A DNA stretch of 64,000 nucleotides from Chelatococcus sp. YT9 (GTDB lineage: Bacteria > Pseudomonadota > Alphaproteobacteria > Rhizobiales > Beijerinckiaceae). The notes beneath the pieces are model-generated. The model was not told where the DNA came from, searched no databases, and saw only the letters and a program-made list of their open reading frames with translations. The translations under genes were made by a program, and so were the position numbers. This document shows positions 25,218 to 45,238 of the stretch, one piece after another (within the stretch, counting starts at the first letter, position 1; every line of letters starts with the position of its first letter). The stretch is taken from contig NZ_JAHBRW010000001.1 of NCBI RefSeq assembly GCF_018398315.1, positions 4,038,501-4,102,500 of the forward strand. The letters are read 5' to 3'.

Positions 25218-26135
25218 ATGGGCCGTTACATCGTGCAGCGACTCATCCTCACGATTCCGGTGCTCATCGGCATCATGCTGGTGTGTTTTTTTCTGACCCG
25301 TCTAAGCGGTGATCCGACCGACCTCATGTTGCCGACCAACGCGACCGAGGAGGCCAGGGCCGCCTTCCGGTCCGTGCACGGCCTCGACAAGCCGTTGTGG
25401 GAGCAGTTCGTCACATTCTTCGCCAAAGGGCTCATGGGCGATTTCGGCTCCTCGTTGCGCTTCAACCAGCCGGCGATGAGCCTCGTCTGGGAGCGCCTTG
25501 GTGCGACCACGGAACTGGCCGCCGCAACGATGGCCATGGCGCTCTTCATCGGCGTGCCGGCGGGGGTGGCCGCTGCCTATCGCCGCAATACGCCCGCCGA
25601 TATCACCATTCGCGGCATCACGCTCATGGGACAGGCGCTGCCAGGCTTTTACCTCGGCATCATCTCGATCATTGTCTTTGCCGTATGGCTGCGCTGGCTG
25701 CCCTCGGGCGGACGCGGTTCCTGGCTCAATCTCATTCTGCCGGCCGCGACCCTTGCCTTCAATCTCGTCGCGCTGATCGCACGCGTCACGCGGTCCTGCA
25801 TGCTCGACGTGCTGCGGCAGGATTATATCCGTACAGCCCGCGCCAAGGGCGCCCGTGAGCGCACCGTGCTGTGGATCCACGCCCTGCGGAACGGCTTCAT
25901 TCCCGTGCTCACCGTTATTGGTCTCCAGGTCGGTCTCCTGATGGGAGGCGTCGTAGTGACCGAAACGGTATTCTCCTGGCCCGGAGTGGGGCGCCTCGCC
26001 ATCCAAGCGATCTACGCGCGCGACTTTCCCGTTGTGCAGGCAGTCGTTTTCACCTTCGCGATCATTTTCGTGTTCGTGAACCTCGTCGTCGATCTCCTCT
26101 ACGCGGTTCTCGATCCGCGCATCAGCTACAACTGA
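25218..26135 (+). CDS. Dipeptide/oligopeptide-type ABC transporter permease (DppB family)
   Basis: A 305-residue inner-membrane protein forming one half of a peptide-type ABC channel. It begins MGRYIVQRLILTIPVLIGIM, the usual DppB first helix, has about six membrane segments, a loop with TRLSGDPTDLMLP, and the EAA-type coupling stretch DYIRTARAKGARERTVLWIH (about residues 195-214) that would contact the ATPase. The C-terminus VVDLLYAVLDPRISYN is typical. The ATG at 25218 is preceded by AGGGGAA; GTG 25200 is an alternative. It is followed 9 bases later by the partner permease. No ATPase gene lies nearby. Confidence 0.93.
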   Translation: MGRYIVQRLILTIPVLIGIMLVCFFLTRLSGDPTDLMLPTNATEEARAAFRSVHGLDKPLWEQFVTFFAKGLMGDFGSSLRFNQPAMSLVWERLGATTELAAATMAMALFIGVPAGVAAAYRRNTPADITIRGITLMGQALPGFYLGIISIIVFAVWLRWLPSGGRGSWLNLILPAATLAFNLVALIARVTRSCMLDVLRQDYIRTARAKGARERTVLWIHALRNGFIPVLTVIGLQVGLLMGGVVVTETVFSWPGVGRLAIQAIYARDFPVVQAVVFTFAIIFVFVNLVVDLLYAVLDPRISYN

Positions 26136-26144
26136 GGCGGCGCC

Positions 26145-27050
26145 ATGTCCTTGTCACCGCCTGTCGCTGCAGCGGAGCCCACCCCCATCGAAAGCCGCTG
26201 GCGCGGCGTGCTGAAGCGCCTCGTGGCGAAGAAGGCGGCCAAGCTCAGCCTCTTGATCATCTTGATCGGGTTTCTGTTCGCGCTGGCGCCTTCGCTATTG
26301 GCGCCGCATGATCCCTATGCCCAGGAGCTAACCCTGCGCCTGCGTCCGCCGGCGCTGATGGAGCGCGGTGTGCCGGGATACTGGCTCGGCACCGACCAAC
26401 TCGGCCGCGATATTCTCTCCCGCATCATCTATGGCGCCCGTATCACGCTCTTCGTCAGTATCTTCGCTGTCCTCGTATCGGGCCTCGCGGGCGTCGCGAT
26501 GGGCCTCATCGCGGGGTACTACGGCGGCAAGGCGGATGCGGTCATCCTGCGGCTGATCGATATCCAGCTCGCCTTTCCGCTGGTTCTCCTGGTCATTGCC
26601 GTGGTGGCGGTCGTTGGTCCCTCGCTCACCAATCTCATCATCATCATGGGATTGTCGGGCTGGCCGCGCTTCGCGCGCGTGGTGCGCGGCTCGGTACTGT
26701 CCGTCCGCAACAAGGAATTCGTGGAGGCCGCGCGAGCGATCGGCGTGAAGACGCCGCGCATCATGGTGCAGCACATCCTGCCGAACGTCCTCTCGGCGGT
26801 GATCGTCTATGCCAGCTTTGATCTCGCCCGCATGATCCTCCTGGAAGCGACGCTCAGCTTTCTAGGCCTTGGCGTGCAGCCGCCATCGCCAACATGGGGT
26901 GGCATGATCAGCGACGGCGCCAAATACATGAGCTTGTCGTGGTCGGTCTCACTCAGCCCCGGCATCGCCATCGCGCTTCTGATCCTGGCCTTCAACATTC
27001 TTGGCGACGAGCTTCGCGACGCGCTCGACCCACAGATTTCCGATAACTGA
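26145..27050 (+). CDS. Dipeptide/oligopeptide-type ABC transporter permease (DppC family)
   Basis: The partner channel subunit, 301 residues. It shows the DppC N-terminus with a charged cytoplasmic leader (about residues 1-33), one helix, then a periplasmic stretch with LAPHDPYAQ and YWLGTDQLGRDILSRIIYGARITL, a diagnostic DppC motif. The coupling loop is EFVEAARAIGVKTPRIMVQHILPN and the end is GDELRDALDPQISDN. It forms an operon with the preceding permease and very likely with the tautomerase gene 34 bases downstream. Confidence 0.93.
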   Translation: MSLSPPVAAAEPTPIESRWRGVLKRLVAKKAAKLSLLIILIGFLFALAPSLLAPHDPYAQELTLRLRPPALMERGVPGYWLGTDQLGRDILSRIIYGARITLFVSIFAVLVSGLAGVAMGLIAGYYGGKADAVILRLIDIQLAFPLVLLVIAVVAVVGPSLTNLIIIMGLSGWPRFARVVRGSVLSVRNKEFVEAARAIGVKTPRIMVQHILPNVLSAVIVYASFDLARMILLEATLSFLGLGVQPPSPTWGGMISDGAKYMSLSWSVSLSPGIAIALLILAFNILGDELRDALDPQISDN

Positions 27051-27084
27051 CGTCGCGATCGATCCGGCCCAGGAGGGGGCGACC

Positions 27085-27306
27085 ATGATCATTACCATTC
27101 AGTTTGAGAACAGCCGCACGGACGACACCAAGCGTGCCGGCGCCAAGGCTTTGACGGAGGCGGCTGTTGAAACGCTCGGCGTCAAGCCGGAGTGGGTCAC
27201 CGTTCTCTACGAGAATTACGACAAGGAGAACTGGGCCATTGGCGGCGAATTGCTGCTCGACCGCCATGCGGCGCGCGAGAAGGCCGCGAAAGCGCAGGAG
27301 TCCTAA
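27085..27306 (+). CDS. 4-oxalocrotonate tautomerase-like protein, copy 1 (no Pro-1)
   Basis: A 73-residue protein of the 4-OT/tautomerase superfamily, normally small oligomeric enzymes that use an N-terminal proline (exposed after Met removal) as catalytic base. This copy starts MIITIQFENSRTDDTKRAGA. Compared with copy 2, which starts MPIITIQ, the residue where proline should be is the initiator Met itself, so the classical catalytic base is missing. The shared C-terminal part is WVTVLYENYDKENWAIGGELLLDRH. The ATG at 27085 has an excellent AGGAGGGGG, so a missed upstream start is unlikely. It follows the permeases by 34 bases. Confidence 0.85.
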   Translation: MIITIQFENSRTDDTKRAGAKALTEAAVETLGVKPEWVTVLYENYDKENWAIGGELLLDRHAAREKAAKAQES

Positions 27307-27565
27307 GGCCTACAGGAGGCCTCAGGCCGATCCAGGGCCATGAATTGGCTTTGGCTGTTCCGAAGCAGAGCCAGTCTCAACACGCGGACCGGCTCGAAAC
27401 AAGCGGGAAATCCGGCCGAATCCTTAAAGTGACGATCCAAACGCCTGAGTATTTCGAGGGGTATATCTTCTCAGCTGAGCCTGAGCCGCATCGATCAAGA
27501 TCGGAAAAGCAGGGGGATATCCACCCGATGTTCGTAACCATCACCAGCCAGACAGGGATTAATCG

Positions 27566-27781
27566 ATGCCCATCATCACCATTCAGTTCGACAAGGGCCG
27601 CTCCGTGGAGAAAAAGCGGGAAGTCGCCAATGCTGTAACCGACGCCATCGTGGCAACGCTCGGGGGCCAGCGCGATTGGGTCACCATTCTGTTCCGCGAC
27701 TATGAGCGTACGGACTGGGCGATCGGCGGCAACCTGCAACTTGACCGCCACGGTCCGCTGAAACCCGGCCACCACGGCTGA
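27566..27781 (+). CDS. 4-oxalocrotonate tautomerase-like protein, copy 2 (Pro-1 present)
   Basis: 71 residues, starting MPIITIQFDKGRSVEKKREV: the catalytic Pro-1 follows the Met and the Arg of KGRS sits near position 11, as in active 4-OT family enzymes. The conserved second half WVTILFRDYERTDWAIGGNLQLDRHG is shared almost letter for letter with copy 3. It lies 259 bases after copy 1 and 42 bases before copy 3. The substrate is unknown; the family includes tautomerases, dehalogenases and decarboxylases. In the setting it may act on an enol/keto or imine product of the transported compound. Confidence 0.88.
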   Translation: MPIITIQFDKGRSVEKKREVANAVTDAIVATLGGQRDWVTILFRDYERTDWAIGGNLQLDRHGPLKPGHHG

Positions 27782-27823
27782 TAGCGCATACCTCTCCCCT
27801 CACGAGCAAAAGGCATCACGACA

Positions 27824-28042
27824 GTGATCATCACCATTCAGATGGAAAAAGGCCGCAACGTGGATACCAAGCGGCGGGCGGCGAAGGCCTTTACGGAGGC
27901 TGCCATTGCGACCCTCGGCGCCAAAGCCGAGTGGGTGACAGTGCTGTTTGAGGATTACGAGCGCACGGATTGGGCGATCGGGGGCAACCTGCAGCTAGAT
28001 CGCCACGGCCCGGGGCTCGTCACGCTCGGCAATAAGGAATAA
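27824..28042 (+). CDS. 4-oxalocrotonate tautomerase-like protein, copy 3 (no Pro-1, GTG start)
   Basis: 72 residues from a GTG start: (M)IITIQMEKGRNVDTKRRAAK. As in copy 1 there is no proline after the start, and no in-frame upstream ATG that would supply one. The second half WVTVLFEDYERTDWAIGGNLQLDRHG matches copy 2 closely, showing recent duplication. If the GTG is right, copies 1 and 3 may be non-catalytic partners of copy 2 in a mixed oligomer; that is inference. A strong hairpin follows immediately. Confidence 0.82.
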   Translation: MIITIQMEKGRNVDTKRRAAKAFTEAAIATLGAKAEWVTVLFEDYERTDWAIGGNLQLDRHGPGLVTLGNKE

Positions 28043-28047
28043 CAAAA

Positions 28048-28073
28048 GGGGCCCGGATTTTATTCCGGGCCCT
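28048..28073. terminator. Hairpin between converging tautomerase 3 and solute-binding protein genes
   Basis: GGGCCCGG (28049-28056), 8-base AT-rich loop, CCGGGCCC (28065-28072). On the minus strand it is followed by CCTTTTGTT, a good T-run, so it should terminate the solute-binding protein gene; on the plus strand it caps the tautomerase transcript. Confidence 0.8.
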
Positions 28074-28095
28074 CATCACTGAACCGAGGCGTGAT

Positions 28096-29607
28096 CTACT
28101 TCAGCGAAGTATTATAGAAATAGAAGCGCTGGTCGCCGCTCGGCTTGAAGTTCTCGAGCTTGTTGGTCGTTCCGTAGAATTCGACGCCAGCGAACAGAAA
28201 TATGATCGGCGCCTCATCATGCATGATGCGCATCGCCTTCTTATAGATCTCGTCGCGCTTGGCACGGTCGGTCTCGCGTGCTCCGGCATCGATCAGCGCA
28301 TCGAGCTCGGCGTTCTTGATATAGGAGTAGCGATAGTCCGAACGATAGGCAGCGATCGCAAAGCCTGGATCATCGGGAACCCCAAGGCCGATCAAGCCGA
28401 GAGGCGCCAGCTCGCGAGCGATGAACTGACGCAGGAATTCGCCTGACTCGAGCGAGGTGATCTTCGTTTTCACGCCGACCTTATCGAGCATGCCGGCAAT
28501 GGCTTCGCAAAGCTCACGATCATTGGGATAACGGTTCGACGGGCATTTGAAACCGACCTCGAAGCCGCTGGGAAAGCCTGCTTCTGCAAGCAGAGCCTTT
28601 GCCTTGGCGGGATCGTAGGGATAGTCGTCGATCGAGGGATCGAAGCCGAGCTGGTTCTTCCGCAGGATCTGGCCGTGGAGCATCCCCCCCTTGCCGAAGA
28701 AGAGGTTGTCGATGATCGCCTTTTTATCGATTGCGTAGTTCAGCGCCTGGCGAACGCGCTTGTCTTGAACAGGGCCTGGGTGGGTTTCAAGCGACGACTG
28801 CACGACCTGGAATACCCGATAGCTGTCGACGCCGATCAGCTTCAAATCCGGACGCGCCTCGAGCTCGATCGCCGTGGTCACCGGCAGGTTGACGGCAAGC
28901 CCATATTCGCCCGTCGTAAGACCCGCAGCGCGCGCGGTATCGTCCGGCACGGCCTTCCAAACGAGCCGATCGATGCCTTCCGGCAACTTGCCCCAGTATC
29001 CCGTGTTCTTGTCCATCACGAGCCGGTCGTCCTTGACCCACTCGGTCAGCTTGAAAAGACCGGTGCCGATCGGCTTCTGACCAAAGCCCTTAGGTCCGAC
29101 CTCTGCCCAATAGGCAGGTGGTGTCACGAGCACCTGCGCAAGCATCAGTTCAAGGGCAGGGTAGGGATATTTGAGACGAAGGCGGACCGTATGATCATCA
29201 ACCTTCTCGGCGCCCGCAAGACCAGTCGAATAGACCGTGTAAGCGGACGCGATCTTTGGGTCCATGAAGATGCGGAGACTATGGACCACGGCATCCGCAT
29301 TCATCGGCTCGCCGTTGGTGAAGCTGACCCCCTTGCGCAGCTTGATGAGGATCTCAGTCTCGGACACCTTCTCGAAGCTCTCCGCCAGGAGAGGTTCGAT
29401 CTTGCCGCTGACCGGATTGTTGAAGAACAGCGGCTCCAGGATCGCGAAGGACGGGTTGTTCGTCGACAGTGTGCCGAACAGATCCGCTGGGTCGTAGGGC
29501 TGGGCGATGGTCAGGGTCGCCGCCACGGCGTTGGCCGACAAGGGCAATGCGGAGGCCATGAAGGGAAGCGTCACCGCAAGCGCAAGTGCACGCAGGTTGG
29601 GGCGCAT
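28096..29607 (-). CDS. Peptide-type ABC solute-binding protein (family 5), paralogue 1
   Basis: A 503-residue periplasmic binding protein of the SBP_bac_5 family (peptides, opines, glutathione and similar). It has a signal peptide (MRPNLRALALAVTLPFMASA..., cleavage near AVA), then the family blocks EPLLAESFEKVSETEILIKLRKGVSF broken into LAESFE and FTNGEPMNADAVVHSL, TGLFKLTEW, and YPYDPAKAKALLAEAGFPSG near residue 330. GAGGAG precedes the ATG. It is clearly paralogous to the protein at 32742-34256. It probably feeds the permeases at 25218-27050, although it is transcribed in the opposite direction. A divergent XRE-cupin regulator lies upstream. Confidence 0.93.
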   Translation of the reverse strand: MRPNLRALALAVTLPFMASALPLSANAVAATLTIAQPYDPADLFGTLSTNNPSFAILEPLFFNNPVSGKIEPLLAESFEKVSETEILIKLRKGVSFTNGEPMNADAVVHSLRIFMDPKIASAYTVYSTGLAGAEKVDDHTVRLRLKYPYPALELMLAQVLVTPPAYWAEVGPKGFGQKPIGTGLFKLTEWVKDDRLVMDKNTGYWGKLPEGIDRLVWKAVPDDTARAAGLTTGEYGLAVNLPVTTAIELEARPDLKLIGVDSYRVFQVVQSSLETHPGPVQDKRVRQALNYAIDKKAIIDNLFFGKGGMLHGQILRKNQLGFDPSIDDYPYDPAKAKALLAEAGFPSGFEVGFKCPSNRYPNDRELCEAIAGMLDKVGVKTKITSLESGEFLRQFIARELAPLGLIGLGVPDDPGFAIAAYRSDYRYSYIKNAELDALIDAGARETDRAKRDEIYKKAMRIMHDEAPIIFLFAGVEFYGTTNKLENFKPSGDQRFYFYNTSLK

Positions 29608-29626
29608 CTTATTCTCCTCGGAAGTT

Positions 29627-29681
29627 AAATTATGACGAGCGTATCGCTATTTTTTGAATTTACAAAAGAAAATTTCACAAA
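29627..29681. promoter_or_regulatory. Promoter/operator region of solute-binding protein 1 and the XRE-cupin gene
   Basis: Read toward the binding-protein gene, TTCAAA and CATAAT are 18 bases apart, a plausible promoter close to the start. Upstream of it two related words, GAATTTACAAA (29656-29666) and AATTTCACAAA (29671-29681), resemble the TTGTGAATTT repeats at 25065 and 25110 in reverse. The CATAAT segment (complement of 29627-29640) also resembles the region 34336-34357 in front of the second binding-protein gene. Confidence 0.45.
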
Positions 29682-29782
29682 TATCGTAATGTCACCCAAT
29701 TCATTATGAAGCATCGAAGGTCACGCCCATTCCTGCCCTCGCCAGCAATTCAGCCGCCCTGGACCGTGAAACGGACATCTCT

Positions 29783-30334
29783 GTGGGTGATCGCATTCGC
29801 CAGCTCCGCCTGGCGCGCGGTCGTTCCCTGAAGGAAGTTGCGGAACGAGCCGGGCTGTCGATCGCTCTCATCAGCCAGATCGAGCGAGGCCTTTCCTCCG
29901 CATCCGTGCGCGTTCTCGCGCGGCTTGCCTACGGTCTCGATGTGGACATCGCTGACCTGTTCGAGCCGCCGTTTGACGAGGGGGACAGCGAACGGCCCAT
30001 TGCGCGCGTCAAGGACCGCAAGCGCATTGAGTTGGCGCAAACGGGAATCACGAAGGAACTGCTCACGCCCTTCCGTCGCACGCCGCGCTTGGACATCTAC
30101 ATGATGACGATCGAGCCCAACGGGAAATCGGGCGACGAGAGCTTCGTCCACGAGGGTGAGGAAGCTGGCGTTATCCTTGAGGGAAGCCTCGATTTCTTCG
30201 TCGATGGGCGGCGTTACGTTCTGGGCCAGGGCGATTGCTTTCGCTTCGCCAGCCAGCGCCCCCATAAATACTACAATGCAGGCCCCATTCCCACGAAGGT
30301 GATGTGGGTTCTGTTTCGCAGCGACGAGAAGTAG
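29783..30334 (+). CDS. XRE-family regulator with C-terminal cupin domain
   Basis: A 183-residue transcription regulator: helix-turn-helix of the XRE/Cro type at about residues 1-60 (RIRQLRLARGRSLKEVAERA, then SIALISQIERG) and a cupin sensor domain at about 110-180 (SGDESFVHEGEEAGVILEGS, then GDCFRFASQRPHKYYNAG), which probably binds a small-molecule effector. Members such as PuuR control amine or amino-acid catabolism. The start is a GTG at 29783; no better in-frame ATG exists upstream. It is divergent from solute-binding protein 1 and precedes a dipeptidase-like gene, so it is the likely regulator of locus A. Confidence 0.88.
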   Translation: MGDRIRQLRLARGRSLKEVAERAGLSIALISQIERGLSSASVRVLARLAYGLDVDIADLFEPPFDEGDSERPIARVKDRKRIELAQTGITKELLTPFRRTPRLDIYMMTIEPNGKSGDESFVHEGEEAGVILEGSLDFFVDGRRYVLGQGDCFRFASQRPHKYYNAGPIPTKVMWVLFRSDEK

Positions 30335-30441
30335 CGCCGGGCCGGCTGACAGTCGTCTGCCTTTTCTGGCCGCATAGACGCCGGGCCCCACACAACCAGG
30401 GGCGGCCGATCAAGAACAGAGGAAATCCGGAGGTGTCCGAA

Positions 30442-31431
30442 GTGTCCCACATCGTCATAGACGGCCTGAATTGCGCATCAATGAACCGCGACCAGATGGT
30501 GCGCACCCATGAGGGGGGTATCACCGCGCTCAACTACACATGTCTGCCGGTGCTCGGGGACCTCGTCGCCTCCCTCACACGTCTGCAGGCCGTGCGCGAT
30601 ACCATCGAGGCGATGCCTGACGTCGCCCTGATCGTGTCCTCGACCGCAGACATTCGGGCAGCCCACGAAACAGGCCGGGTTGGGGTCATCCTCGGCACCC
30701 AGAACTCGACAATGGTCGAGGCCGACGTGGCGCTGCTCGGTGCGTTCCGGACACTGGGTCTGCGCATCCTGCAGCCCACCTACAACGAGCAGAACGCCTT
30801 CGGTTATGGCGCATCCTTCGACGCGAGCACCGATCTCGGCATCACCGAAGCCGGGCACGCGTGGCTGGCCGAGATGCACAAGCAGCACCTCATCGTTGAC
30901 CTGTCACATTGCGGCCCGAAGACAACCGACGACTACCTGGCGGCCGCCAAGGAGCCCGTCGTCATCAGCCATTCCAACGCCTTTGCGCTTTGTCCCAATC
31001 CACGCAACAAGTCTGACGACCAAGCGCGCGCGGTCGCCAAAACCGGCGGCCTCATTGGCGCGGTGCTGTGGTCGCCGCTCGTCAAGATCGAGACCCGGCC
31101 CACCCTCGACGACTATATCGACCATGTCGCGCATCTCGTGAGAGTCGCCGGGATCGAGCACGTGTCTTTCGCGACCGACCTTGTCGAGCCGCATCCCGAT
31201 CCTGTGAAATGGGACAAGGCGGTCGGTCCGAACGGTGAATATCCAAACATCACCGGCATTCTCGGTGACTGGTATCGCTACGAGACCCGCCTCAATACCG
31301 GCTTTCAATCGATGAGGGATACACCCGGGATCTGGGAGGCCATGCGGCGCCGCGGCTTCAGCTCGTCCGACATCGAGAGGATCGCCTCGGGCAATTGGCT
31401 TCGGGTCATGCGTGATATCTGGGGTGCGTGA
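30442..31431 (+). CDS. M19 membrane-dipeptidase-like protein, paralogue A (altered metal ligands)
   Basis: A 329-residue cytoplasmic (no signal peptide) member of the renal-dipeptidase M19 family. Conserved ligands present: VDLSH (His156), ISHSN (His177) and ATD (Asp246), with the same spacing as His198/His219/Asp288 of human DPEP1. But the N-terminal HxD of active enzymes (DGHND) is DGLNC here, and the bridging Glu (GxEGG) is Gln87 in LGTQNS. So the two-zinc site is incomplete; the protein may use one metal or act on something other than a dipeptide. GTG 30442 is preferred because GGAGG lies 8 bases before it; GTG 30433 is an alternative. Confidence 0.85.
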   Translation: MSHIVIDGLNCASMNRDQMVRTHEGGITALNYTCLPVLGDLVASLTRLQAVRDTIEAMPDVALIVSSTADIRAAHETGRVGVILGTQNSTMVEADVALLGAFRTLGLRILQPTYNEQNAFGYGASFDASTDLGITEAGHAWLAEMHKQHLIVDLSHCGPKTTDDYLAAAKEPVVISHSNAFALCPNPRNKSDDQARAVAKTGGLIGAVLWSPLVKIETRPTLDDYIDHVAHLVRVAGIEHVSFATDLVEPHPDPVKWDKAVGPNGEYPNITGILGDWYRYETRLNTGFQSMRDTPGIWEAMRRRGFSSSDIERIASGNWLRVMRDIWGA

Positions 31432-31467
31432 GGTTCCCATTCCCCCCCAGAAGCGGAACCAACGCAG

Positions 31468-31499
31468 GATCCAGCCGGGCTTTCTGGCCCGGCTGGATC
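31468..31499 (+). terminator. Strong terminator-like hairpin after dipeptidase A
   Basis: A 13-pair perfect stem, GATCCAGCCGGGC (31468-31480) and GCCCGGCTGGATC (31487-31499), with a 6-base loop and then TTTCT. It closes the regulator-dipeptidase A transcript and lies 157 bases from the converging dipeptidase B stop. Confidence 0.85.
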
Positions 31500-31655
31500 T
31501 TTCTACTGGAAACAGGTGCGGCTCGTGACGATGCAGTCCACCTGAAATACTGCTGAAATCAGCCTTAAGGTCGCGACATTCGGTCGACCGGCGGGGCTTC
31601 TTTCTGGCCCCACTTCCGGCTGGGAGATGAACAACGTGAGGTGGAGAGGGACTGA

Positions 31656-32660
31656 TCAGCCGCCCCACACTTCGGCGTAAACGCGCAAGAGGTTGCCGCC
31701 CATGATCTTGTCGACATCCGACGGGCTGAACCCTTTGCGTTTTAGCGCTTCGCTCAAATTGGGCGTTTCAGCGAGGCTCTCGAAGCCCTCAGTCATGCGA
31801 CAGGTGAAGGTGAACCAGGGACCCATGACGCCGGTAACCTCGGGATACATGCCGCGGGGACCGAAGGATTTCTGCCACTGCTCCTCCGATGCATAGGTTC
31901 CCTCGGACAGGTCGCTGCCGAACGCCACATGGTCGATGCCGATCAGATTGACGACGTAGGCGACCTGTTCTGCCCAGTCGTCCAGTGTCGGCCGCGTCGC
32001 ATGCCGTGTCATAGGCGGCCAGGGCGTCAGACCGACGGTGCCGCCCGTGCGCGCGGCGGCGCGGATCAGCTCGTCTGGAATGTTGCGCAGGCTGTTGCAC
32101 ACCGCGCGCGCGTTGGAATGGCTGAAAATGACCGGACGCTTCGAACGGGCAAGCACGTCGGCGGCCGTGCGGTAGCCCACGTGGGACAGATCGATAAGGA
32201 TCCTCAGCTCATTCATGAGCTCGACCCAGCGCTCGCCCTTTTCGGTCAAGCCGTCGTCTCCGCCCTCTGCGAGCACGCCGCAGCCAAGAGTGTTTCGCTC
32301 CATATAGGTTGGCTGGAGAATGCGAAAGCCGATGCGTTGCAGGATGCGGAGAAGTTCCAGATCCTCCTCCACCACGACCGAATTCTGCGCGCCCAGAATG
32401 ATGGCGAGCTTGCCGGCGGCTTTCGCTGCCTTGATATCGGCGACGCTGCGGGGGATGACGGCGATGTCGTGGTTCTCTGAGATGACCGCCAGGCTTCGCG
32501 CTAGCGCCGGCATGGCGGTGGCAAAATCGTGGGGCGGACGGATCGCGGTGAGATTGATGGCTGTGACGCCGCCCTCCAGCGTGCGCAGCATCTGCTCGCG
32601 GCTGACGCGCGCGCAGTTCAAGCCATCGACGACGATGGCATCAGATGACGATGATGGCAT
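31656..32660 (-). CDS. M19 membrane-dipeptidase-like protein, paralogue B (altered metal ligands)
   Basis: 334 residues, clearly paralogous to the protein at 30442-31431 (shared VDGLNCA start, ILGAQNS, RILQPTYMERN, GPxxxYPxxTG segments). It keeps LIDLSH, IFSHSN and FGSD, but like paralogue A has Leu and Cys instead of His and Asp in the first metal motif and Gln in place of the bridging Glu. Both copies sharing these changes points to a selected variant rather than decay. It is transcribed with the second solute-binding protein (81 bases away, which lies upstream on the minus strand reading order reversed: the binding protein at 34256-32742 is read first). Confidence 0.85.
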   Translation of the reverse strand: MPSSSSDAIVVDGLNCARVSREQMLRTLEGGVTAINLTAIRPPHDFATAMPALARSLAVISENHDIAVIPRSVADIKAAKAAGKLAIILGAQNSVVVEEDLELLRILQRIGFRILQPTYMERNTLGCGVLAEGGDDGLTEKGERWVELMNELRILIDLSHVGYRTAADVLARSKRPVIFSHSNARAVCNSLRNIPDELIRAAARTGGTVGLTPWPPMTRHATRPTLDDWAEQVAYVVNLIGIDHVAFGSDLSEGTYASEEQWQKSFGPRGMYPEVTGVMGPWFTFTCRMTEGFESLAETPNLSEALKRKGFSPSDVDKIMGGNLLRVYAEVWGG

Positions 32661-32741
32661 GACGTTCCTTGCACTCCCATAGTCTTCGGAACATTCCGGA
32701 CAGGCGACTTCTCAACTGGCGAATTCCTGGCGATGCCAATG

Positions 32742-34256
32742 TCACGGCTTTAGAGTGACACCGTAGAAGAAGAAGCGTTGGTCGCCGCGCGGCTGAAAGC
32801 CCTCGAGCTTTTTCGAGACGCCGTAGAAGTCGTATCCGCCGTAGAGAAAGACGATAGGCGCCTCTTCGTGCATGAGCTGCATGGCCTGGCGATAAATGGC
32901 GGTACGCTTGTCACGGTTCGTCTCGCGCGCGCCAGCGTCGATTAAGCCGTCGAGCTCCGCATTGCGCATGTAGGAATAGCGCCAGGACGAGCGATATTGC
33001 GCAACCTGGAAGTCGGGGTCGTCAAGGGGCGCAAGTCCCAGAAACGCCATCGGTTGCAGTTCACGCGCCCGGAGCTGGCGCAGAAACTCACCGGCCTCGA
33101 GCGACACCATCTTTGTGCGAACGCCCACCTTGGCCAGCATTCCGGCGATCGCCTCGGACACCTCGCGGTCCTGCGCATAGCGGCCTGAAGGAAATTTGAA
33201 GACGATCTCGAAGCCATCGGGATAGCCGGCTTCGCGCAGAAGCGCTTTAGCCTTCTCCGGGTCGTAGGGGTAGTCCTTAAGGGATGGATCGAAGCCCAGC
33301 TGTTCCTTGCGCAGCACCTGCCCGTTGAGCGGGAAGGCACGGCCGGCGAACAGGCTGTCGATGATGAGCTTCTTATCGACGGCATAGTTCATCGCCTGGC
33401 GGACGCGCTTGTCCTTCAGAGGACTTGGATGTTCCTCGAGCGAGGACAGAATCAGCTGAAATATCCTGTAGCTTGGCACCTGCATCACTTCGCGGTCGGG
33501 CAGACGCTCGATGTCGCCGATGGCGGTGATGGGAATATTCGTGGCGACATCGAACTCGCCGATCGTGAAGCCCGCGACACGGGCTGCATCGTCAGGCACC
33601 GGGCGCCAGACGAGACGATCGATACCGTTCGGCCCGTTGCCCCAATACTGGGTGTTACGCTCCATGACCAGCTGATTGTCTTTAATCCACTCCTTCAGGA
33701 TAAACGGTCCAGTACCAATTGGCTTCTGGCCGTAGGCTTCCAGTCCGACGCTCGACCAATAAGCGGGCGGCGTGATGTAGACCTGAGTCAGCATCAGCTC
33801 GAAGGGCGGGTAGGGGAACTTGGTGTGCACGGCGACGGTCATGTCGTCGAGCTTCTCGACCCGGTCGACCGCCGCTGCATAATTGGCGTACGCAGGCGCC
33901 TGCTTCGGGTCGAGGAACACCTTGAAGCTGTGGACCACCGCATCGGCGTTCAGGGGTTCGCCATTGCTGAAGCTGACACCCTTGCGGATTGTCAGCTTCA
34001 TGGTCGTTGGCGCGACGAGCTCCCAGCTTTCGGCAAGAAGAGGTTCGGTCTTGCCGCTGGTGGGATTGTTCCAGAGCAGAGGCTCGACGATCACGCCGCC
34101 GGCATTGAGATTGTCCGACGCTGTTGTGCCATTCGGCCAGAGAGTCTGTGGATCGAAGCCCTGAGCCACGGTCACGGTTTTCGTCTGCGCCACGGCCATA
34201 GTCGATGACGTGACGATGGCGAGCAGAATGAAGGCACGGCGCACAGCTTGCAGCAT
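32742..34256 (-). CDS. Peptide-type ABC solute-binding protein (family 5), paralogue 2
   Basis: A 504-residue periplasmic protein with a signal peptide (cleavage near AVAQ, residues 21-24) and the SBP_bac_5 blocks LAESWE, FSNGEPLNADAVVHSF, TGPFILKEW, and YPYDPEKAKALLREAGYPDG. It shares long identical stretches with paralogue 1, including the ends (QRFFFYGVTLKP against QRFYFYNTSLK), so the pair arose by duplication. GGGAG precedes the ATG. It is read first, followed by dipeptidase B on the same strand, repeating the binding-protein/dipeptidase pairing seen at 28.1-31.4 kb. Confidence 0.93.
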   Translation of the reverse strand: MLQAVRRAFILLAIVTSSTMAVAQTKTVTVAQGFDPQTLWPNGTTASDNLNAGGVIVEPLLWNNPTSGKTEPLLAESWELVAPTTMKLTIRKGVSFSNGEPLNADAVVHSFKVFLDPKQAPAYANYAAAVDRVEKLDDMTVAVHTKFPYPPFELMLTQVYITPPAYWSSVGLEAYGQKPIGTGPFILKEWIKDNQLVMERNTQYWGNGPNGIDRLVWRPVPDDAARVAGFTIGEFDVATNIPITAIGDIERLPDREVMQVPSYRIFQLILSSLEEHPSPLKDKRVRQAMNYAVDKKLIIDSLFAGRAFPLNGQVLRKEQLGFDPSLKDYPYDPEKAKALLREAGYPDGFEIVFKFPSGRYAQDREVSEAIAGMLAKVGVRTKMVSLEAGEFLRQLRARELQPMAFLGLAPLDDPDFQVAQYRSSWRYSYMRNAELDGLIDAGARETNRDKRTAIYRQAMQLMHEEAPIVFLYGGYDFYGVSKKLEGFQPRGDQRFFFYGVTLKP

Positions 34257-34528: not shown

Positions 34529-35413
34529 CTAGCCCTTCACGGCACCGGACGTCAGGCCGGAGACGAGATAGCGCTGGATGACCAGGAAGAACGCTGCAGC
34601 GGGCAGCGCGAAAACGACCGACGCCGCCATCATCTCGTCCCACGCCACCGAATACTGGCTCTCGAAGGAGGTGAGACCGACCGAGAGCACCCAATTGCTC
34701 TGGGTGGCGATGAGCGTGCGCGCCAGGAAGAATTCATCCCATCCGGTGATGAAGGAGAAGGCTGTCACCACCACGAGCCCGGGAATGGCCAGCGGTAGGG
34801 TCACCCGATAGAAGGCGCCCATGCGGCTGCAGCCATCGATCTGTGCCTGCTCCTCGAGGTCCGCTGGAATGCGGTCGAAGAAGCCCTTCATCAGCCAGGT
34901 CGCGAGCGGCAGAATGAAGGCCGCGTCGGCGATCGCAAGCCCGATCAGGGTATTGTAGAGGCCGAGCTGCCGGAAGATCACATAGAGTGGCACGACGATC
35001 AGCGTCGCGGGCAGCATTTGCGAGAACAGGATGAAAATCCCGAAAGCGCCGGTCATTTTGCCGCGAAAGCGCGACAGAGCATAGCCGGCATTGATCGCCA
35101 CGATGGTGCAGAAGATCGACGTTGCGGAGGCCACGACGGCGGTGTTGGTCAGCCAGGTCAGTACCGCGCGCTCTGTGAAGATCTTTTCATAGGCTTTGAG
35201 GGAAATGCTGCTGGGAATGATCCGCGGCGGCCATTCGAAGAGAGAGCCGGTGTCCAGAGAGGATACGAGCATCCAATAGTACGGAAAGATCACGATCCCC
35301 GCGCAGAGCAGCGTGAAGATGAAAGCAGCGGTGCTTCTCACAAGCGCGAGCCGCGACGACCCTGCGATCGAAGACGAGTCCATCCTCTTTGCGGTACTGA
35401 CGAAGGATCTCAT
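34529..35413 (-). CDS. Sugar-type ABC transporter permease (MalG family)
   Basis: 294 residues, inner-membrane channel subunit of a carbohydrate uptake (CUT1-type) transporter. About six helices; the first follows a short charged leader. The coupling segment EEQAQIDGCSRMGAFYRVTLP (about residues 195-214) corresponds to the EAA loop. The C-terminus LVSGLTSGAVKG is the standard MalG ending. Its ATG overlaps the stop of the preceding permease by four bases (ATGA), indicating coupled translation. Substrate is not deducible from this sequence alone. Confidence 0.94.
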   Translation of the reverse strand: MRSFVSTAKRMDSSSIAGSSRLALVRSTAAFIFTLLCAGIVIFPYYWMLVSSLDTGSLFEWPPRIIPSSISLKAYEKIFTERAVLTWLTNTAVVASATSIFCTIVAINAGYALSRFRGKMTGAFGIFILFSQMLPATLIVVPLYVIFRQLGLYNTLIGLAIADAAFILPLATWLMKGFFDRIPADLEEQAQIDGCSRMGAFYRVTLPLAIPGLVVVTAFSFITGWDEFFLARTLIATQSNWVLSVGLTSFESQYSVAWDEMMAASVVFALPAAAFFLVIQRYLVSGLTSGAVKG

Positions 35414-36330
35414 GGTGTCTCGCTCCGGCGGGCGATCAGAAAGAAATAAACCAGGCTGAAGCAGAGCAGGATTACGAGAAGCACGGCGCCGACCGCAGAG
35501 GCGTAGCCGATGCGCTGATATTGGAAGGCGACGTTATATGTGAGAATCGACAACGTTTCCGTCGCGCGCGCTGGCCCACCGCCGGTCATCGCATAGATCA
35601 TCGTCACGCGGCGGAAGGAATTGAGAATCAGGATCAGGATGAGGATGACGTTGACGGCTCTCAAGCCAGGCAACGTCACGTGGATGAAGCGCCGGAAAAC
35701 GCCTGCGCCATCCACCATCGCGGCTTCATACTGCTCGTCGGGAATGGTCTGCAGACCGGCAAGCAGGATCAGCATCGCGAAGGGGAATTGCTGCCAACTC
35801 GTAACCAGCACAAGAGCCGGCATGGCCAGCCCTGCGCTTGTCAGCCAGGCGGCTGGAGCACTGAGAATGCCGGCTTCAACCAGGACGTAGTTGATGACGC
35901 CATACTGGGCATCCAGCATCCACACGAAGATCATGACGGCCACAACTTCGGGGATGGCCCACGGCATGATGAAAAGTGTGCGAATGAAGCCACGACCGGG
36001 CATCTTGCGGTTGAGCAGCAACGCAAAGCCGAGCCCGAGGCAATAGGTGCAGAGCATGGTCACAATGCCGTAGGTGAAAGTCACCGTTACGGAATTCGAG
36101 AATGCCGGATCGCTCCCCAAAGCCACGTAGTTGGCAAGGCCAATAAACTGGCCCTCGCTGTAGCGCAGTAGCCGCGTGTTGAAAAAGCTGAGCGCGATGC
36201 CCCGCACGATGGGATAGAAGAGGAGCCCCGCCATAATGATCCCCGCCGGCAAAATGAGCCAGACGGGCATCCAGTCGATGGGCGCCGGACGCGATGGCTG
36301 AATGACCACCGCCGATGGGTCCCGTTTCAT
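35410..36330 (-). CDS. Sugar-type ABC transporter permease (MalF family)
   Basis: 306 residues, first channel subunit of the CUT1-type importer. It has a cytoplasmic leader, then PVWLILPAGIIMAGLLFYPI, further helices, FIMPWAIPEVVAVMIFVWM and the coupling loop QYEAAMVDGAGVFRRFIHVTLP near residue 205. The start at 36330 (MKRDPSAVV) is preferred over the frame start at 36390, because the extra 20 residues would run across a palindromic operator at 36356-36370. Downstream neighbour overlaps by four bases. Confidence 0.92.
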   Translation of the reverse strand: MKRDPSAVVIQPSRPAPIDWMPVWLILPAGIIMAGLLFYPIVRGIALSFFNTRLLRYSEGQFIGLANYVALGSDPAFSNSVTVTFTYGIVTMLCTYCLGLGFALLLNRKMPGRGFIRTLFIMPWAIPEVVAVMIFVWMLDAQYGVINYVLVEAGILSAPAAWLTSAGLAMPALVLVTSWQQFPFAMLILLAGLQTIPDEQYEAAMVDGAGVFRRFIHVTLPGLRAVNVILILILILNSFRRVTMIYAMTGGGPARATETLSILTYNVAFQYQRIGYASAVGAVLLVILLCFSLVYFFLIARRSETP

Positions 36331-36355
36331 GAATCGCTCGCAAATTGGTATTAGA

Positions 36356-36370
36356 CTGGTACGATACCAG
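36356..36370. promoter_or_regulatory. 15-bp palindrome, candidate operator (copy 1 of GTA-N3-TAC)
   Basis: CTGGTA-CGA-TACCAG is a perfect palindrome 26 bases upstream of the MalF-type start. Its core GTA-N3-TAC is shared with the palindrome at 37985-37999, in front of the same operon and the divergent regulator. Two matched palindromes at two promoters of one locus suggest one regulator, most likely the GntR/LacI hybrid at 38021. Confidence 0.65.
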
Positions 36371-36603
36371 ATCGGTGGGTCCACTGGCATGGACTGGAAT
36401 CATCGTGACAGGAGAGGCATGGCGATCTTTTTCGGACAGGCCTTTCCCCGGCAGTGGGAGAGCCGGGACCTAGCCCGGCCTCGAAAGCCGCGAACGGTCG
36501 GTGATGACGGATCGTCTGTAGATGAGTGAACGCTGTGAAGCGTCGGGGAAACGGCACGTGAACGGCCACCTAAACCCCAGCCCCCAGCGGGTCAGGATCC
36601 TTC

Positions 36604-36647
36604 CGCCTTGCCGCAGGCTCGGCGGGAGGGCCCGCGGGCGACCGCGG
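36604..36647 (-). terminator. Tandem GC-rich hairpins after the sugar-binding protein gene
   Basis: CCGCC (36604-36608) pairs with GGCGG (around 36621-36625), and CCGCGG (36632-36637) with CCGCGG (36642-36647) around GCGA. They follow the binding-protein stop on the minus strand and have no T-run. Such structures often keep binding-protein mRNA more abundant than that of the permeases. Confidence 0.5.
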
Positions 36648-36680
36648 ACCGTACATAGGACCGGGAGGTGAGCCTGGCCG

Positions 36681-37925
36681 TCACCGGGTTTTCGCCCAGG
36701 TCTCCAAGGCATTCTGTGCCTGGTTCAGGCCTTCCTCGACCGTCGCCGTCCCCGCATAGATCTTGGCGAGATGGTCAGAGACGATCTGCCGGAACTCAGC
36801 CGCATCGACCGCGTAGCCGGGCGGGGCATAACCGAGTCCGCCAGGATATTTCGCCGCGATCTCGACCATCTTGCCGACCCAGGGGTTGCTGGCGAGGAAT
36901 TCCGGGCTGAGCTTCACGTCCGTGCCGGGAATCTGCAGGAGCTTCTCGACATAGGCGCGCTGGGCCGGCTCTGCGTTGATGATCTCGAGATACTCGCAGG
37001 CCTCGGCCTTCAGCTTCGAGCCTGCGGGAATCGTGTAGTAGGCGCCGCCGGTGATGGCCGCATGGGTCGGCGTCGGCATCACGGCGAAGTCCACCTTTTT
37101 CAGGAGATCCGGATTGGTGGTGCTGACCTGCCCGATCACCCAGGGACCGTCGAAGATAAAGGCGACCTTACCCTCTGCGAACATGGTGCGAATCGCGTTG
37201 GCATCGAGGCCTTTTGGGCTCAGGCCCTCGTCAAGGAAGCGCTTGGTCCATGAAACGCCTTTAATCGTCAGCGGATCGTTCGCGGTGATGGTGCCGTCCG
37301 GCTTCGACCAGTCGCCACCCAGCCCGATCACCCACTGCATGCTCTGCAGATAGGGGAAAAGCGCGTTCGACATGTTGTTGGGGAAGCCATATCCCCACTG
37401 GCCGGTCTTTTCCTTCACCGCCTTCGCGGCGGCATGGAACTCTTCGGGCGTGGTCGGGATGCTCGTGATACCGGCTCTTTCCAGAAGGGCCTTGTTCACG
37501 ATCATGGACTGAGGGCTCATTGTGAGCGGCACGCCATAGGTCTTGCCGTCCTTCTGCGCGAACTTGATCGAGGATAGCAGCCTGTCCTTGTAGGAGGAGG
37601 CCGCGATACAGTCGTCGAGCGGCGCGAGCACGCCCGCATCGATAAGCGGGGCAAGCATGTTGGTGTAAGCCGGCATGAGGTCTGGCACATCGCCAGCGGC
37701 GATCTGCGTTGTGATGACGTTCTCGAAATTGGCTGGAGACAGCACCGTGGCCTCGACCTTCACGCCCGGGTGCTTGGCTTCGAACTCCGCCTTCCGCTCC
37801 TTGTGCCAGGCTCCGACCTGGCCTTCTTCCCACATCCAGCTCGGATATTTGAAGGTCTTGTCCTGCGCGACGGCCGCGCTTGAGAGCGCCGCGAGGCAGC
37901 ACACGCCAGCGATAATCGCTTTCAT
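36681..37925 (-). CDS. Sugar-type ABC solute-binding protein (family 1)
   Basis: A 414-residue periplasmic protein with signal peptide MKAIIAGVCCLAALSSAAVA and then the SBP_bac_1 pattern: HPGVKVEATVLSPANFENVI, TQIAAGDVPDLMPAY, DGKTYGVPLTM, VNKALLERAGI, FAEGKVAFIFDGPWVIGQV and GGAYYTIPAGSK. Tryptophans such as those in WMWEEGQVGAW near the mature N-terminus and in SMQWVIGLGG fit a carbohydrate ligand site. It is the first gene of the minus-strand operon and diverges from the regulator at 38021. The ligand is unknown. Confidence 0.94.
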   Translation of the reverse strand: MKAIIAGVCCLAALSSAAVAQDKTFKYPSWMWEEGQVGAWHKERKAEFEAKHPGVKVEATVLSPANFENVITTQIAAGDVPDLMPAYTNMLAPLIDAGVLAPLDDCIAASSYKDRLLSSIKFAQKDGKTYGVPLTMSPQSMIVNKALLERAGITSIPTTPEEFHAAAKAVKEKTGQWGYGFPNNMSNALFPYLQSMQWVIGLGGDWSKPDGTITANDPLTIKGVSWTKRFLDEGLSPKGLDANAIRTMFAEGKVAFIFDGPWVIGQVSTTNPDLLKKVDFAVMPTPTHAAITGGAYYTIPAGSKLKAEACEYLEIINAEPAQRAYVEKLLQIPGTDVKLSPEFLASNPWVGKMVEIAAKYPGGLGYAPPGYAVDAAEFRQIVSDHLAKIYAGTATVEEGLNQAQNALETWAKTR

Positions 37926-37984
37926 AAAAAATCCCCCTTTGTGACCGGTATTATCATTTCAGCTGTTGTTGTCGTTTGAGCGTT

Positions 37985-37999
37985 CATGTAGAATACATG
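37985..37999. promoter_or_regulatory. 15-bp palindrome, candidate operator (copy 2 of GTA-N3-TAC)
   Basis: CATGTA-GAA-TACATG lies in the divergent region between the binding-protein gene (start 37925) and the regulator gene (start 38021). It shares GTA-N3-TAC with the site at 36356-36370. A single site here could control both directions. Confidence 0.65.
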
Positions 38000-38020
38000 T
38001 TCTATGGAGCGATACAATCC

Positions 38021-39115
38021 ATGACCGCAGATAAGACCGGACTTATGGAGCGCGCGCTGCGCGAGGCAATCGAGGAAGGGCGCTATGTGCCCGGCCACTC
38101 GATCCCCTCTGAGCGTCAGCTCATGGAGGAATATTCCCTGTCGCGCACCACCGTTCGGCGGGCGATTGATGCGCTTGTTGATGCCGGGCGGCTTGAGCGT
38201 CGGCCTGGAAGTGGTACTTTTGTCGTAGACCGCCTGGCGAGCATTCGCCCTGGTCCCGCGCGTCCGACGCGGCTCGCGCTGATCATCCCCACTTTTTCGA
38301 GTCCGTTCTACGGCGAGATGATCGATGGCATGGAGCAGGAGGCGCGTAGCCATGATCTCAAGGTCATGGCGAGCCAGTCCGAATATCGCTTCGAAAGTGA
38401 GAGCGAGCAGCTTGGCGAGGTTGCAAACGATCCCAGTATCGGCGGGGCGGTCGTCGCGCCCGGCGCGGTGGATCGCCCGACCCCGGGCGCTCTCAGGGTG
38501 ATCGAGGTCGGCAAGCCCCTCGTCTATGTCGGCCGCTGGCCGAAAGGGCTCAAGATCGACGCCATTTCAACCGACTACCTGACGGCTGCGAAGCTTGCCG
38601 TGGCGCATCTCATCGCGCTTGGTCACAGGCGCATTGCCTATGTCGAAGGGGCGCCGCATTTCCACAATTTCTCACCCTACAGCGGCTATAGCGAGGCGCT
38701 CAGGGAAGCGCGCGTGGCGCAGCATGGGGAGCTGGTATGCCTTCCCGATCTGCCTTCTCAGGAGGCGGGGCACGCTGCTGTGACCGATCTCGTCCGTCGG
38801 GGCGTCGAGTTCACGGCAGTCTTTGCGCGCAACGACGTGACTGCCGTGGGTGTAATGCGCGCGTTGCGCGAGAGGGGGCTCAGTATTCCCCAAGACGTCT
38901 CCGTCGCCGCTATTAACAATAGTCTTCTCGCACGCTCACTCGATCCGCCCCTGACCACGGTCGACCCTTTTCCGTCGACGCTCGGACGGCTCGCGCTCAA
39001 GCTCCTTCATGAAAGGGTTTTGGGGCAATATGCCGGGCCCCCCATACGGATTACGCTCGACCCGACGCTTAATGTACGGGAATCAAGTGGCCCACCGCCG
39101 AGGGCGCGTAAATGA
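38021..39115 (+). CDS. GntR/LacI hybrid transcription regulator (AraR-like)
   Basis: 364 residues. The N-terminus is a GntR winged helix (about residues 1-65: ALREAIEEGRYVPGHSIPSE, SRTTVRRAIDALVDAG, RRPGSGTFV) and the rest is a LacI/periplasmic-binding-type sensor (about 80-350: LIIPTFSSPFYGEMIDGMEQ, LIALGHRRIAYVEG, AVFARNDVTAVGVMRAL, LTTVDPFPSTLGRLALKLL). That is the AraR layout, where a sugar lifts repression. The start at 38021 leaves the palindrome at 37985-37999 outside the gene and has GGAGCG upstream. Likely target: its own gene and the divergent sugar-uptake operon. Confidence 0.92.
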   Translation: MTADKTGLMERALREAIEEGRYVPGHSIPSERQLMEEYSLSRTTVRRAIDALVDAGRLERRPGSGTFVVDRLASIRPGPARPTRLALIIPTFSSPFYGEMIDGMEQEARSHDLKVMASQSEYRFESESEQLGEVANDPSIGGAVVAPGAVDRPTPGALRVIEVGKPLVYVGRWPKGLKIDAISTDYLTAAKLAVAHLIALGHRRIAYVEGAPHFHNFSPYSGYSEALREARVAQHGELVCLPDLPSQEAGHAAVTDLVRRGVEFTAVFARNDVTAVGVMRALRERGLSIPQDVSVAAINNSLLARSLDPPLTTVDPFPSTLGRLALKLLHERVLGQYAGPPIRITLDPTLNVRESSGPPPRARK

Positions 39116-40325: not shown

Positions 40326-41855
40326 ATGAAACGGAAGTATCATTCCCTTCTGGCAGTGGCCTTGGTTTCACTTCCATTTTATTCGGGGAGTGCTATCGCG
40401 GAGCCGAAGCGTGGCGGTATTATCAACGTGGCAACCGTCGGCGAGCCGCCGACGCTCGATCCCATGGTCTCGACGGCCGATCTGGTCGGCATCGTTAGCC
40501 AGCACATCTTCGAGACGCTCTATACCTTCGGCAAGGACTGGAAAATCACGCCTCTTCTTGCTGAGGCGCTACCTGAAATATCGCCGGACGGCAAAATCTA
40601 TACAATCAAGCTGCGTGATGGAATTGCTTTCCACGACGGCGGCACCATGACGTCTCGCGATGTGGTCGCTTCACTGAAGCGCTGGACGGAGAATGCTTCT
40701 CGCGGCAAGCAGACCGCGACCAATATTGCTTCGATCGAGCCGGTCGGCGACCTGACCGTGAAGATCACGCTGAAGGAGGCCTACGCCCCGCTTCTGGCTT
40801 TGCTGGCCTTCAACAATTCGGCAGCCATCGTGCTGAAGGCGGATAATCAGGCGGTTCCGTTGGCCAAGGTGGCCGGGACGGGCCCTTATGCCTTGAAGGA
40901 GCGCAAGGCCGACCAGTATATCCAGCTCACCCGCTTCGATGGATACAAATCACGTTCCGGCGATTCGGATTTTTACGGCGGCGCGCGCAAGCAATACCTT
41001 GACGAGATCCGCTTTGTTCCCGTGCCGGATCCCAATACGCGTGTTGAAGGGGCCGTTGCGGGGCAGTTTGCTTACGCGGATTCCCTGCCGGTCGAGTCCT
41101 TTGACCGTCTGAAGACGGGTAAGTCGACGCCGGCCGTTCTGAAATCTTTCGGTTGGCCGGTCTTCGTCATGAATACGAAGGAAGGCATCACATCCAGGCT
41201 CGAGGTACGGCAGGCGGTCCAGGCTGCGCTCGATCCCAACGATATGCTGTTGGCCGCGTTCGGTTCCAAGGAGTTCTATGAGGTCGATGGTGCGCTCTAT
41301 CCGAAGGGCTTCATCTGGCATACCGAGGCGGGCACAAAGCTCTACAATCAGGCGAGCCCGGAGAAAGCCAAGTCGCTTCTCGACAAGGCCGGCTATAAGG
41401 GCGAGCCACTCGTCATTCTGACGAGCCGGCAGTACGAATTCCATTACAAGATGGCTCAGGTGGCCAAGGCCTATCTGGAGCAGGCGGGCTTCAAAGTCGA
41501 CATGCAGGTGGTCGACTGGGCAACGCTCACGCAACGCCGGGCTGATCCGAAGCTTTGGGGAATTTATATCACCCATAGTCCGTTCCTGCCGGAGCCGGCC
41601 CTGTCGAGCTACATGTCCGACGCCTCGCCGGGCTGGTGGTCAACGCCTGCGAAACAAGCGGCCGTTGGCCCGTTCAACACGGCAGTCAATACGGACGAAC
41701 GTGTGAAGTTGTTTGCCAAGGTGCAGGAGGCCGTGTTCGCCGAGGCGCCTCTCTACAAGGTCGGCAATTTCAATGCGCTTTACGCGCAGGCGCCGAATCT
41801 GAAGGGCGTGGAGCCAGCCCCATGGCCGTTCTTCTGGAACGCCTCTCTGGACTGA
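40326..41855 (+). CDS. Peptide-type ABC solute-binding protein (family 5), locus C
   Basis: A 509-residue periplasmic binding protein, with signal peptide MKRKYHSLLAVALVSLPFYS... cut near AIA/EPKRGG. Family blocks: GGIINVATVGEPPTLDPMVS, LLAEALPEISPDGKIYTIKL, FHDGGTMTSRDVVASLKRW, GTGPYALKERK and SPEKAKSLLDKAGYKGEPL. It differs from the paralogous pair of locus A and is a separate lineage. AGGGGAG precedes the ATG. It is the first gene of an operon with two permeases, an amidohydrolase and probably the SelA-like enzyme. Confidence 0.94.
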   Translation: MKRKYHSLLAVALVSLPFYSGSAIAEPKRGGIINVATVGEPPTLDPMVSTADLVGIVSQHIFETLYTFGKDWKITPLLAEALPEISPDGKIYTIKLRDGIAFHDGGTMTSRDVVASLKRWTENASRGKQTATNIASIEPVGDLTVKITLKEAYAPLLALLAFNNSAAIVLKADNQAVPLAKVAGTGPYALKERKADQYIQLTRFDGYKSRSGDSDFYGGARKQYLDEIRFVPVPDPNTRVEGAVAGQFAYADSLPVESFDRLKTGKSTPAVLKSFGWPVFVMNTKEGITSRLEVRQAVQAALDPNDMLLAAFGSKEFYEVDGALYPKGFIWHTEAGTKLYNQASPEKAKSLLDKAGYKGEPLVILTSRQYEFHYKMAQVAKAYLEQAGFKVDMQVVDWATLTQRRADPKLWGIYITHSPFLPEPALSSYMSDASPGWWSTPAKQAAVGPFNTAVNTDERVKLFAKVQEAVFAEAPLYKVGNFNALYAQAPNLKGVEPAPWPFFWNASLD

Positions 41856-41889
41856 CGAAAGCCGGGCCAATCGTTTGATTGTCTCGGTC

Positions 41890-41916
41890 GGGGCCGCGTG
41901 GGGGAGACGCGGCCCC
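41890..41916 (+). terminator. Strong hairpin between binding-protein and permease genes of locus C
   Basis: GGGGCCGCGT (41890-41899), loop GGGGGAG, ACGCGGCCCC (41907-41916), 10 perfect pairs, followed by CCTCTCTCTC rather than T's. Probably a 3'-protecting structure that keeps binding-protein mRNA in excess over permease mRNA. Confidence 0.65.
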
Positions 41917-41941
41917 CCTCTCTCTCGCAATGGTCAGGGTC

Positions 41942-43749: not shown

Positions 43750-43768
43750 TTACGCAAGGACAATTCTG

Positions 43769-45004: not shown

Positions 45005-45238
45005 TGAGCTGCCGGGGGGCGGAGGCGATCCATGGGACCTCGAAGGAGAGAGAATGTTGTGCTGCTGTGAGGGACATGTCTCAGCCTGGCAATATCTCTT
45101 TTCGGGGTTCCATGGATCCGCACCATGCCCGTCCCGCATGTTCGGCTTCGCTTGCCGATGATCGTTGCAGAAGCGGCATTTCAGACGTTGGCTATCGTTC
45201 CTCGCTGGCGACGGTCGACGCGTTCGCAGGAGTAAGGC

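Follow-up and report, generated by a model that had tools for sequence, protein, structure and literature searches.

A tautomerase gene trio with a single N-terminal proline beside a putative Dpp-type importer and M19-type proteins in Chelatococcus

In a stretch of 64,000 nucleotides from Chelatococcus sp. YT9 (the window; its contig is 4.37 Mb long and the genome 6.74 Mb), we analyzed a cluster of ten genes at 25218-34256 that encode two DppB/DppC-type permeases, three small tautomerases (T1, T2 and T3), two family 5 binding proteins (SBP1 and SBP2), two M19-type proteins (M19a and M19b) and an XRE-cupin regulator. The tautomerase trio is the strongest and newest element of the locus, and only T2 keeps the N-terminal proline (Pro1), which in tautomerases is thought to be essential for catalysis. 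We favor, tentatively and with a little less than balanced confidence, the explanation that two modules adjoin in Chelatococcus, an importer-M19 module standing beside a hetero-oligomeric T1-T2-T3 tautomerase in which T2 would be the catalytic subunit.

Only one of three adjacent tautomerases keeps Pro1

The three tautomerase genes follow each other as listed here.

27085..27306, forward strand: T1, tautomerase without Pro1 (Met-Ile start; Arg11 and Trp50 kept); PF01361, 40.7 bits against a cut-off of 22
27566..27781, forward strand: T2, tautomerase with Pro1 (Met-Pro start), the likely catalytic subunit; PF01361, 47.6 bits
27824..28042, forward strand: T3, tautomerase without Pro1 (GTG start, then Ile); PF01361, 34.1 bits

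T2 shares 47% identity with T1 and 66% with T3. It keeps Pro1 in all five genomes in which we found the trio (four Chelatococcus and Devosia enhydra), whereas T1 and T3 lack it in all five. In the window both altered copies start with Met-Ile, and therefore Met occupies the Pro1 position while Arg11 is kept; this Arg is invariant in the ten aligned rows (R12 if the T2 initiator Met is counted), and Trp50 is kept in T3 as in T1. Position 39 holds Thr in all three proteins of the window (column T40), and many relatives of 4-oxalocrotonate tautomerase (4-OT) likewise lack Arg39. We rejected a start-codon error as the source of the absent Pro1, since the 60 bases preceding T1 and T3 hold no in-frame Met-Pro start in any of the five genomes. 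Among 38 tautomerase rows, the 10 without Met-Pro are all T1 or T3. The related tautomerases outside the trio (23 of 23, two of them from Chelatococcus genomes) start with Met-Pro, although the 18 order-level rows, having been cut by script at an in-register Met-Pro, prove that such a start exists and not that it is used.

The short single β-α-β subunit with a Tautomerase domain is that of the 4-OT subgroup. An AlphaFold2 model of T2, with a mean predicted local distance difference test (pLDDT) score of 75, has the 4-OT-type β-α-β fold, and its residue 2 aligns with residue 1 of solved 4-OTs. Because Pro1 is present in T2 and absent from T1 and T3 in five of five genomes, we file T2 in the 4-OT subgroup, and T1 and T3 with the superfamily members that lack Pro-1. 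In the available text of a survey of the superfamily (PMC5818174), 346 of 11,395 sequences lack Pro-1. Of these, 13 fall in the 4-OT subgroup and none is characterized, and one of the residues that most often follow the initiator Met in such members is Ile. The trio is like them in that Pro-1 is absent and other active-site residues are kept; it differs in pairing Pro-1-less genes with a Pro1 paralog, a pairing that the available text of the survey does not name. A set in which one Pro1 copy is accompanied by two Met copies, in an order kept in two genera, makes the role of Pro-1-less tautomerases testable.

The neighborhood is conserved in Chelatococcus and the trio recurs in Devosia

The ten genes stand in identical order in the congeners G397, G436 and G468, that is in all four Chelatococcus genomes reached by the genus search (own included), and each of the four carries the trio together with three M19 proteins of the type described below. 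The ratio of nonsynonymous to synonymous substitution rates (dN/dS) does not rise above 0.07 for any of the ten genes when our genome is compared with one or two congeners (one only for the XRE gene). For T1, T2 and T3 it lies between 0 and 0.05 within the genus, and T3 has a dN of 0 against G397. Since gene order is kept in 4/4 genomes and dN/dS does not exceed 0.07, the cluster is beyond chance, and the ten genes are a conserved neighborhood within Chelatococcus, under purifying selection.

In Devosia enhydra, T1, T2 and T3 follow each other in the identical order, 3 and 20 bases apart, and are respectively 65%, 87% and 64% identical to those of the window. The Pro1 pattern is also the same, with T3 starting Met-Met in this species. 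In a tree of the 38 rows, T1 of both genera forms one clade (99/97), as does T2 (81/75); T3 is not resolved. Thus, the triplication predates the split of the two genera or a transfer between them. Recurrence of the trio in another genus suggests that the altered copies function as partners rather than being dead genes, and this co-conservation is what leads us to infer that the three products form one complex.

Beyond Chelatococcus and Devosia, we saw no further triplet in a pattern scan or in genome searches, the latter scoring part of the candidates (e.g. 14 or 15 per genome). The scan, made with two peptide patterns on the contigs of 84,980 species (46 stretches, 2 relatives), gave two loci, those of C. 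asaccharovorans and Devosia enhydra; sets that have diverged would escape it. Genomes matched, own included, were 5 of 99 in the family (E 1e-10), 37 of 397 in the order (E 1e-8), 3 of 385 in the class (E 1e-12) and 11 of 398 in the phylum (E 1e-10); the Devosia genus search reached one genome. A recognized tautomerase, one per locus, is present in 18 of the 20 order-level loci examined at length, which are part of the order-level matches; the phylum-level matches L035-L044, and L016, stand outside this set. On plasmids, the best T2 relatives are 42-50% identical (21 records) and those of M19a at most about 34%, and nothing like the trio was seen in the plasmid regions opened. A fourth related tautomerase of C. 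asaccharovorans (L028:9824-10123) has Pro1 and groups with single copies from another genus (G954, G857, G1018).

A putative Dpp-type importer is associated with M19 proteins of a metal-poor subfamily

All ten genes were placed at 25218-34256, each matching one or more Pfam families above the gathering cut-off, and position and Pfam together confirm the gene content given in an earlier note on this DNA. The features other than the trio are as follows.

25218..26135, forward strand: DppB-type permease; PF00528 (135.5 bits) and PF19300
26145..27050, forward strand: DppC-type permease; PF00528 (115.3 bits) and OppC_N
28049..28072, no strand assigned: terminator-like hairpin lying where T3 and SBP1 converge; 9 pairs with a T tail on the reverse strand (from a consensus scan only, which gave 10 sites of this kind, compared with 7.7, sd 2.7, for shuffled sequence)
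28096..29607, reverse strand: SBP1, family 5 binding protein; PF00496 (SBP_bac_5), 260.8 bits
29783..30334, forward strand: XRE-cupin regulator; HTH_31 and Cupin_2
30427..31431, forward strand: M19a, M19-type protein, DGLNC variant; PF01244 (Peptidase_M19)
31656..32660, reverse strand: M19b, M19-type protein, DGLNC variant; PF01244, 250.2 bits
32742..34256, reverse strand: SBP2, family 5 binding protein, on the strand of M19b and upstream of it; PF00496, 274.9 bits

The SBP_5 binding proteins and the two BPD_transp_1 permeases would be parts of a Dpp-type importer, such components being those of ATP-binding cassette (ABC) importers of the Dpp/Opp/Nik type. The cluster differs from these in its lack of ATPase genes and in that no NCBIfam importer model reaches its cut-off, the nearest for DppB being Opp2B, NikB and GsiC, each below its own. 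No ATPase gene lies within 25218-34256, the rest of the genome not having been searched for ATPases. For the XRE-cupin regulator, the PuuR model gives 73.5 bits, far under its cut-off of 211. The earlier note had overlooked both the absence of an ATP-binding subunit and that of Pro1 in T1 and T3; as it stated, a binding-protein gene and an M19 gene each occur twice, with SBP1 and SBP2 59% identical over 500 positions and M19a and M19b 44% identical.

In the M19 renal dipeptidase, a binuclear metal site is formed by His-x-Asp, a bridging Glu and two His. M19a and M19b have the M19 fold, but in this site HxD reads LNC and the Glu reads Gln; M19a retains both His (H161 and H182) and D251. Judging from these residues, a one-metal site is possible in M19a and M19b, and we claim no dipeptidase activity for them. 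The metal-site changes that the earlier note called unusual are thus real, but they are ordinary in their subfamily, being found in 11 of 12 aligned M19 proteins, and the closest solved relative, 2i5g, has the same replacements in the alignment. By fold and replaced ligands, M19a and M19b are of the 2i5g type, and we rejected the altered site as a mark of the cluster because it is a trait of a wide subfamily that includes 2i5g. We take 2i5g, a Pseudomonas aeruginosa "amidohydrolase", to be the dgc-linked protein. For both Vibrio natriegens and P. aeruginosa, the available text of PMC12093977 places a predicted dipeptidase ahead of dgcAB. What sets M19a and M19b apart is that they belong to a DGLNC-type group tied to Dpp-type importers.

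This association of a binding protein, DppBC and a DGLNC-type M19 protein recurs at two other loci. First, an operon of our own genome (L032:9559-17975) reads hyuB-hyuA-SBP-DppB-DppC-M19, with a DGLNC-type M19, and is paralogous to the importer and M19 of the window. Second, a locus from another family (L153) has SBP-DppB-DppC, then a DGLNC-type M19 and then two ATPase-type open reading frames. The hydantoinase genes by the paralogous importer point tentatively to peptide- or cyclic-amide-like substrates. The M19-importer association also offers a way into the metal-poor M19 subfamily; for this subfamily we found the structure 2i5g, but no assigned reaction. A second M19-hydantoinase neighborhood was observed on a Salipiger abyssi plasmid (L054:6977-12657), where a 2i5g-type M19 adjoins hydantoinase A/B genes and a branched-chain-type importer.

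Pairs of components recur, the threesome is confined to Chelatococcus

The importer, the M19 proteins and the tautomerases had been read in the earlier note as a single pathway for the uptake and processing of a peptide- or amide-like compound that requires isomerization, a reading which we regard as possible but somewhat doubtful. In its favor, only 34 bases separate dppC from T1, which is on the same strand, and the whole cluster is syntenic in 4/4 Chelatococcus, even in C. asaccharovorans, which has other genes between lexA and dppB. Other tautomerase lineages also adjoin SBP_5/DppBC, mostly with luciferase-like monooxygenases (L115, L117, L118 and L031, which form one clade, and L056 of Roseovarius), and Devosia enhydra has a DppB-DppC-M19-FAD enzyme-SBP operon that starts about 18 kb past T3, its M19 gene lying about 20 kb past. 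However, two-way tblastn, in which positive controls worked, found no tautomerase in 25 M19 loci (3 from our own genome) and no M19 in 29 tautomerase loci (L112 and L116 among them without an annotated tautomerase), some contigs being short (L156, 4.6 kb; L155, 7.0 kb; L164, 7.3 kb). Moreover, the Devosia trio has no adjoining importer or M19: unrelated genes part it from the operon, whose M19 is 34% identical to M19a and does not have the DGLNC motif. A single tautomerase-M19 system was rejected beyond Chelatococcus on the tblastn result, and the check that the earlier note had itself proposed, whether tautomerases and dipeptidase-like genes are rarely found together, turns out against its reading outside the genus. 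Taking the tblastn results together with Devosia, L032, L153 and the L115-type loci, tautomerase and importer therefore recur, M19 and importer recur, and all three together are seen only in Chelatococcus.

In the two-module explanation that we favor, SBP1 or SBP2 would hand a compound to DppB-DppC, energized by ATPases encoded elsewhere and possibly shared, and M19a and M19b would act on this peptide- or cyclic-amide-like compound in the cytoplasm after its import, by hydrolysis or by deformylation or deamidation, with the XRE-cupin regulator presumably controlling this module. The tautomerase may act on an enol or enamine product of the pathway; both the need for an isomerization step and the peptide- or amide-like nature of the substrate are suppositions. 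The locus may plausibly be catabolic. In the open-access literature, we found no paper that combines a tautomerase with a hydantoinase, a dipeptidase and an ABC transporter, and none that joins Chelatococcus with a tautomerase.

The L115, L117, L118, L031 and L056 loci share a recurring layout of SBP_5, a single Pro1 tautomerase, a luciferase-like enzyme and DppBC, to which the Roseovarius locus adds a flavin reductase, an alpha/beta hydrolase and a semialdehyde dehydrogenase. This layout looks like a ring-cleaving catabolic operon.

T1 and T3 as putative partners of T2

To our knowledge, the known 4-OT heterohexamers have Pro1 in both subunits. Two-subunit heterohexamers of this kind have been solved (3mb2, the Chloroflexus hh4-OT; 8t9o, "CF"; 8t9p, "YR"), and the T2 model aligns with them and with trans-3-chloroacrylic acid dehalogenase (1s0y, 3ej7). 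In all of these, as in the trio, short 4-OT-type subunits are encoded side by side. Their non-identical subunits form one enzyme, as those of the trio would; the pairing of its genes supports this indirectly. As far as its sequences tell, the trio is like the heterohexamers built from two genes, except that it has one gene more and that two of its three products lack Pro1. We propose that T1, T2 and T3 assemble as a single 4-OT-type hetero-oligomer in which T2 alone would supply the catalytic N-terminal proline, while T1 and T3, with a retained Met at the Pro1 position, would complete the active sites (Arg11, Trp50) and break the symmetry. Such an obligate three-component tautomerase, an asymmetric ring with fewer and differently built active sites, is a real possibility that we put forward with reserve. 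If true, it would explain some uncharacterized tautomerases without Pro-1 as partners of a Pro1 paralog.

Alternatively, plain duplication could have given three independent homo-oligomers, with the retained Met of T1 and T3 serving through its amino group as base or nucleophile, or with T1 and T3 carrying out other chemistry. The 259 bases between T1 and T2 and the conservation of Arg11 and Trp50 would fit such enzymes, but we consider them unlikely, given that among the 38 tautomerases Pro1 is absent only in copies that stand beside a Pro1 copy and that the three-gene order kept in Devosia favors partners. That T1 and T3 are regulatory or decaying pseudo-enzymes outside catalysis is improbable: a position thought essential is lost, a regulatory role is named as a possibility in the available text of PMC5818174 and dN/dS against Devosia is higher in T1 and T3 than in T2, but within Chelatococcus both are constrained like T2 or nearly so, which rules out plain decay, and their Arg11 is invariant.

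Neighboring genes

In C. asaccharovorans, the extra genes between lexA and dppB include SBP_5, Dpp-type permeases and an ATPase. We rejected a move of the cluster as a block in this species: lexA is in place with other genes before dppB, which therefore indicates an insertion. By eye, the same insert (L127:13409-19835 and L027:1-4932) also holds an FMN reductase, an FAD monooxygenase and a long hydantoinase/oxoprolinase-like protein.

The window contains a second Dpp-type set on the forward strand (40326-46435), made up of SBP_5, DppB-type and DppC-type permeases, Amidohydro_1 and a SelA-like PLP enzyme. Its DppC-type permease (42883-43749) was called from position and similarity, and no SelA-like gene was seen in C. 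asaccharovorans. Adjoining SBP2, a sugar-type ABC importer (34529-37925, reverse strand), comprising a binding protein with two permeases, is syntenic in three congeners, and a GntR-LacI-type regulator near SBP2 (37976-39115, forward strand) is syntenic in two of the three as seen.
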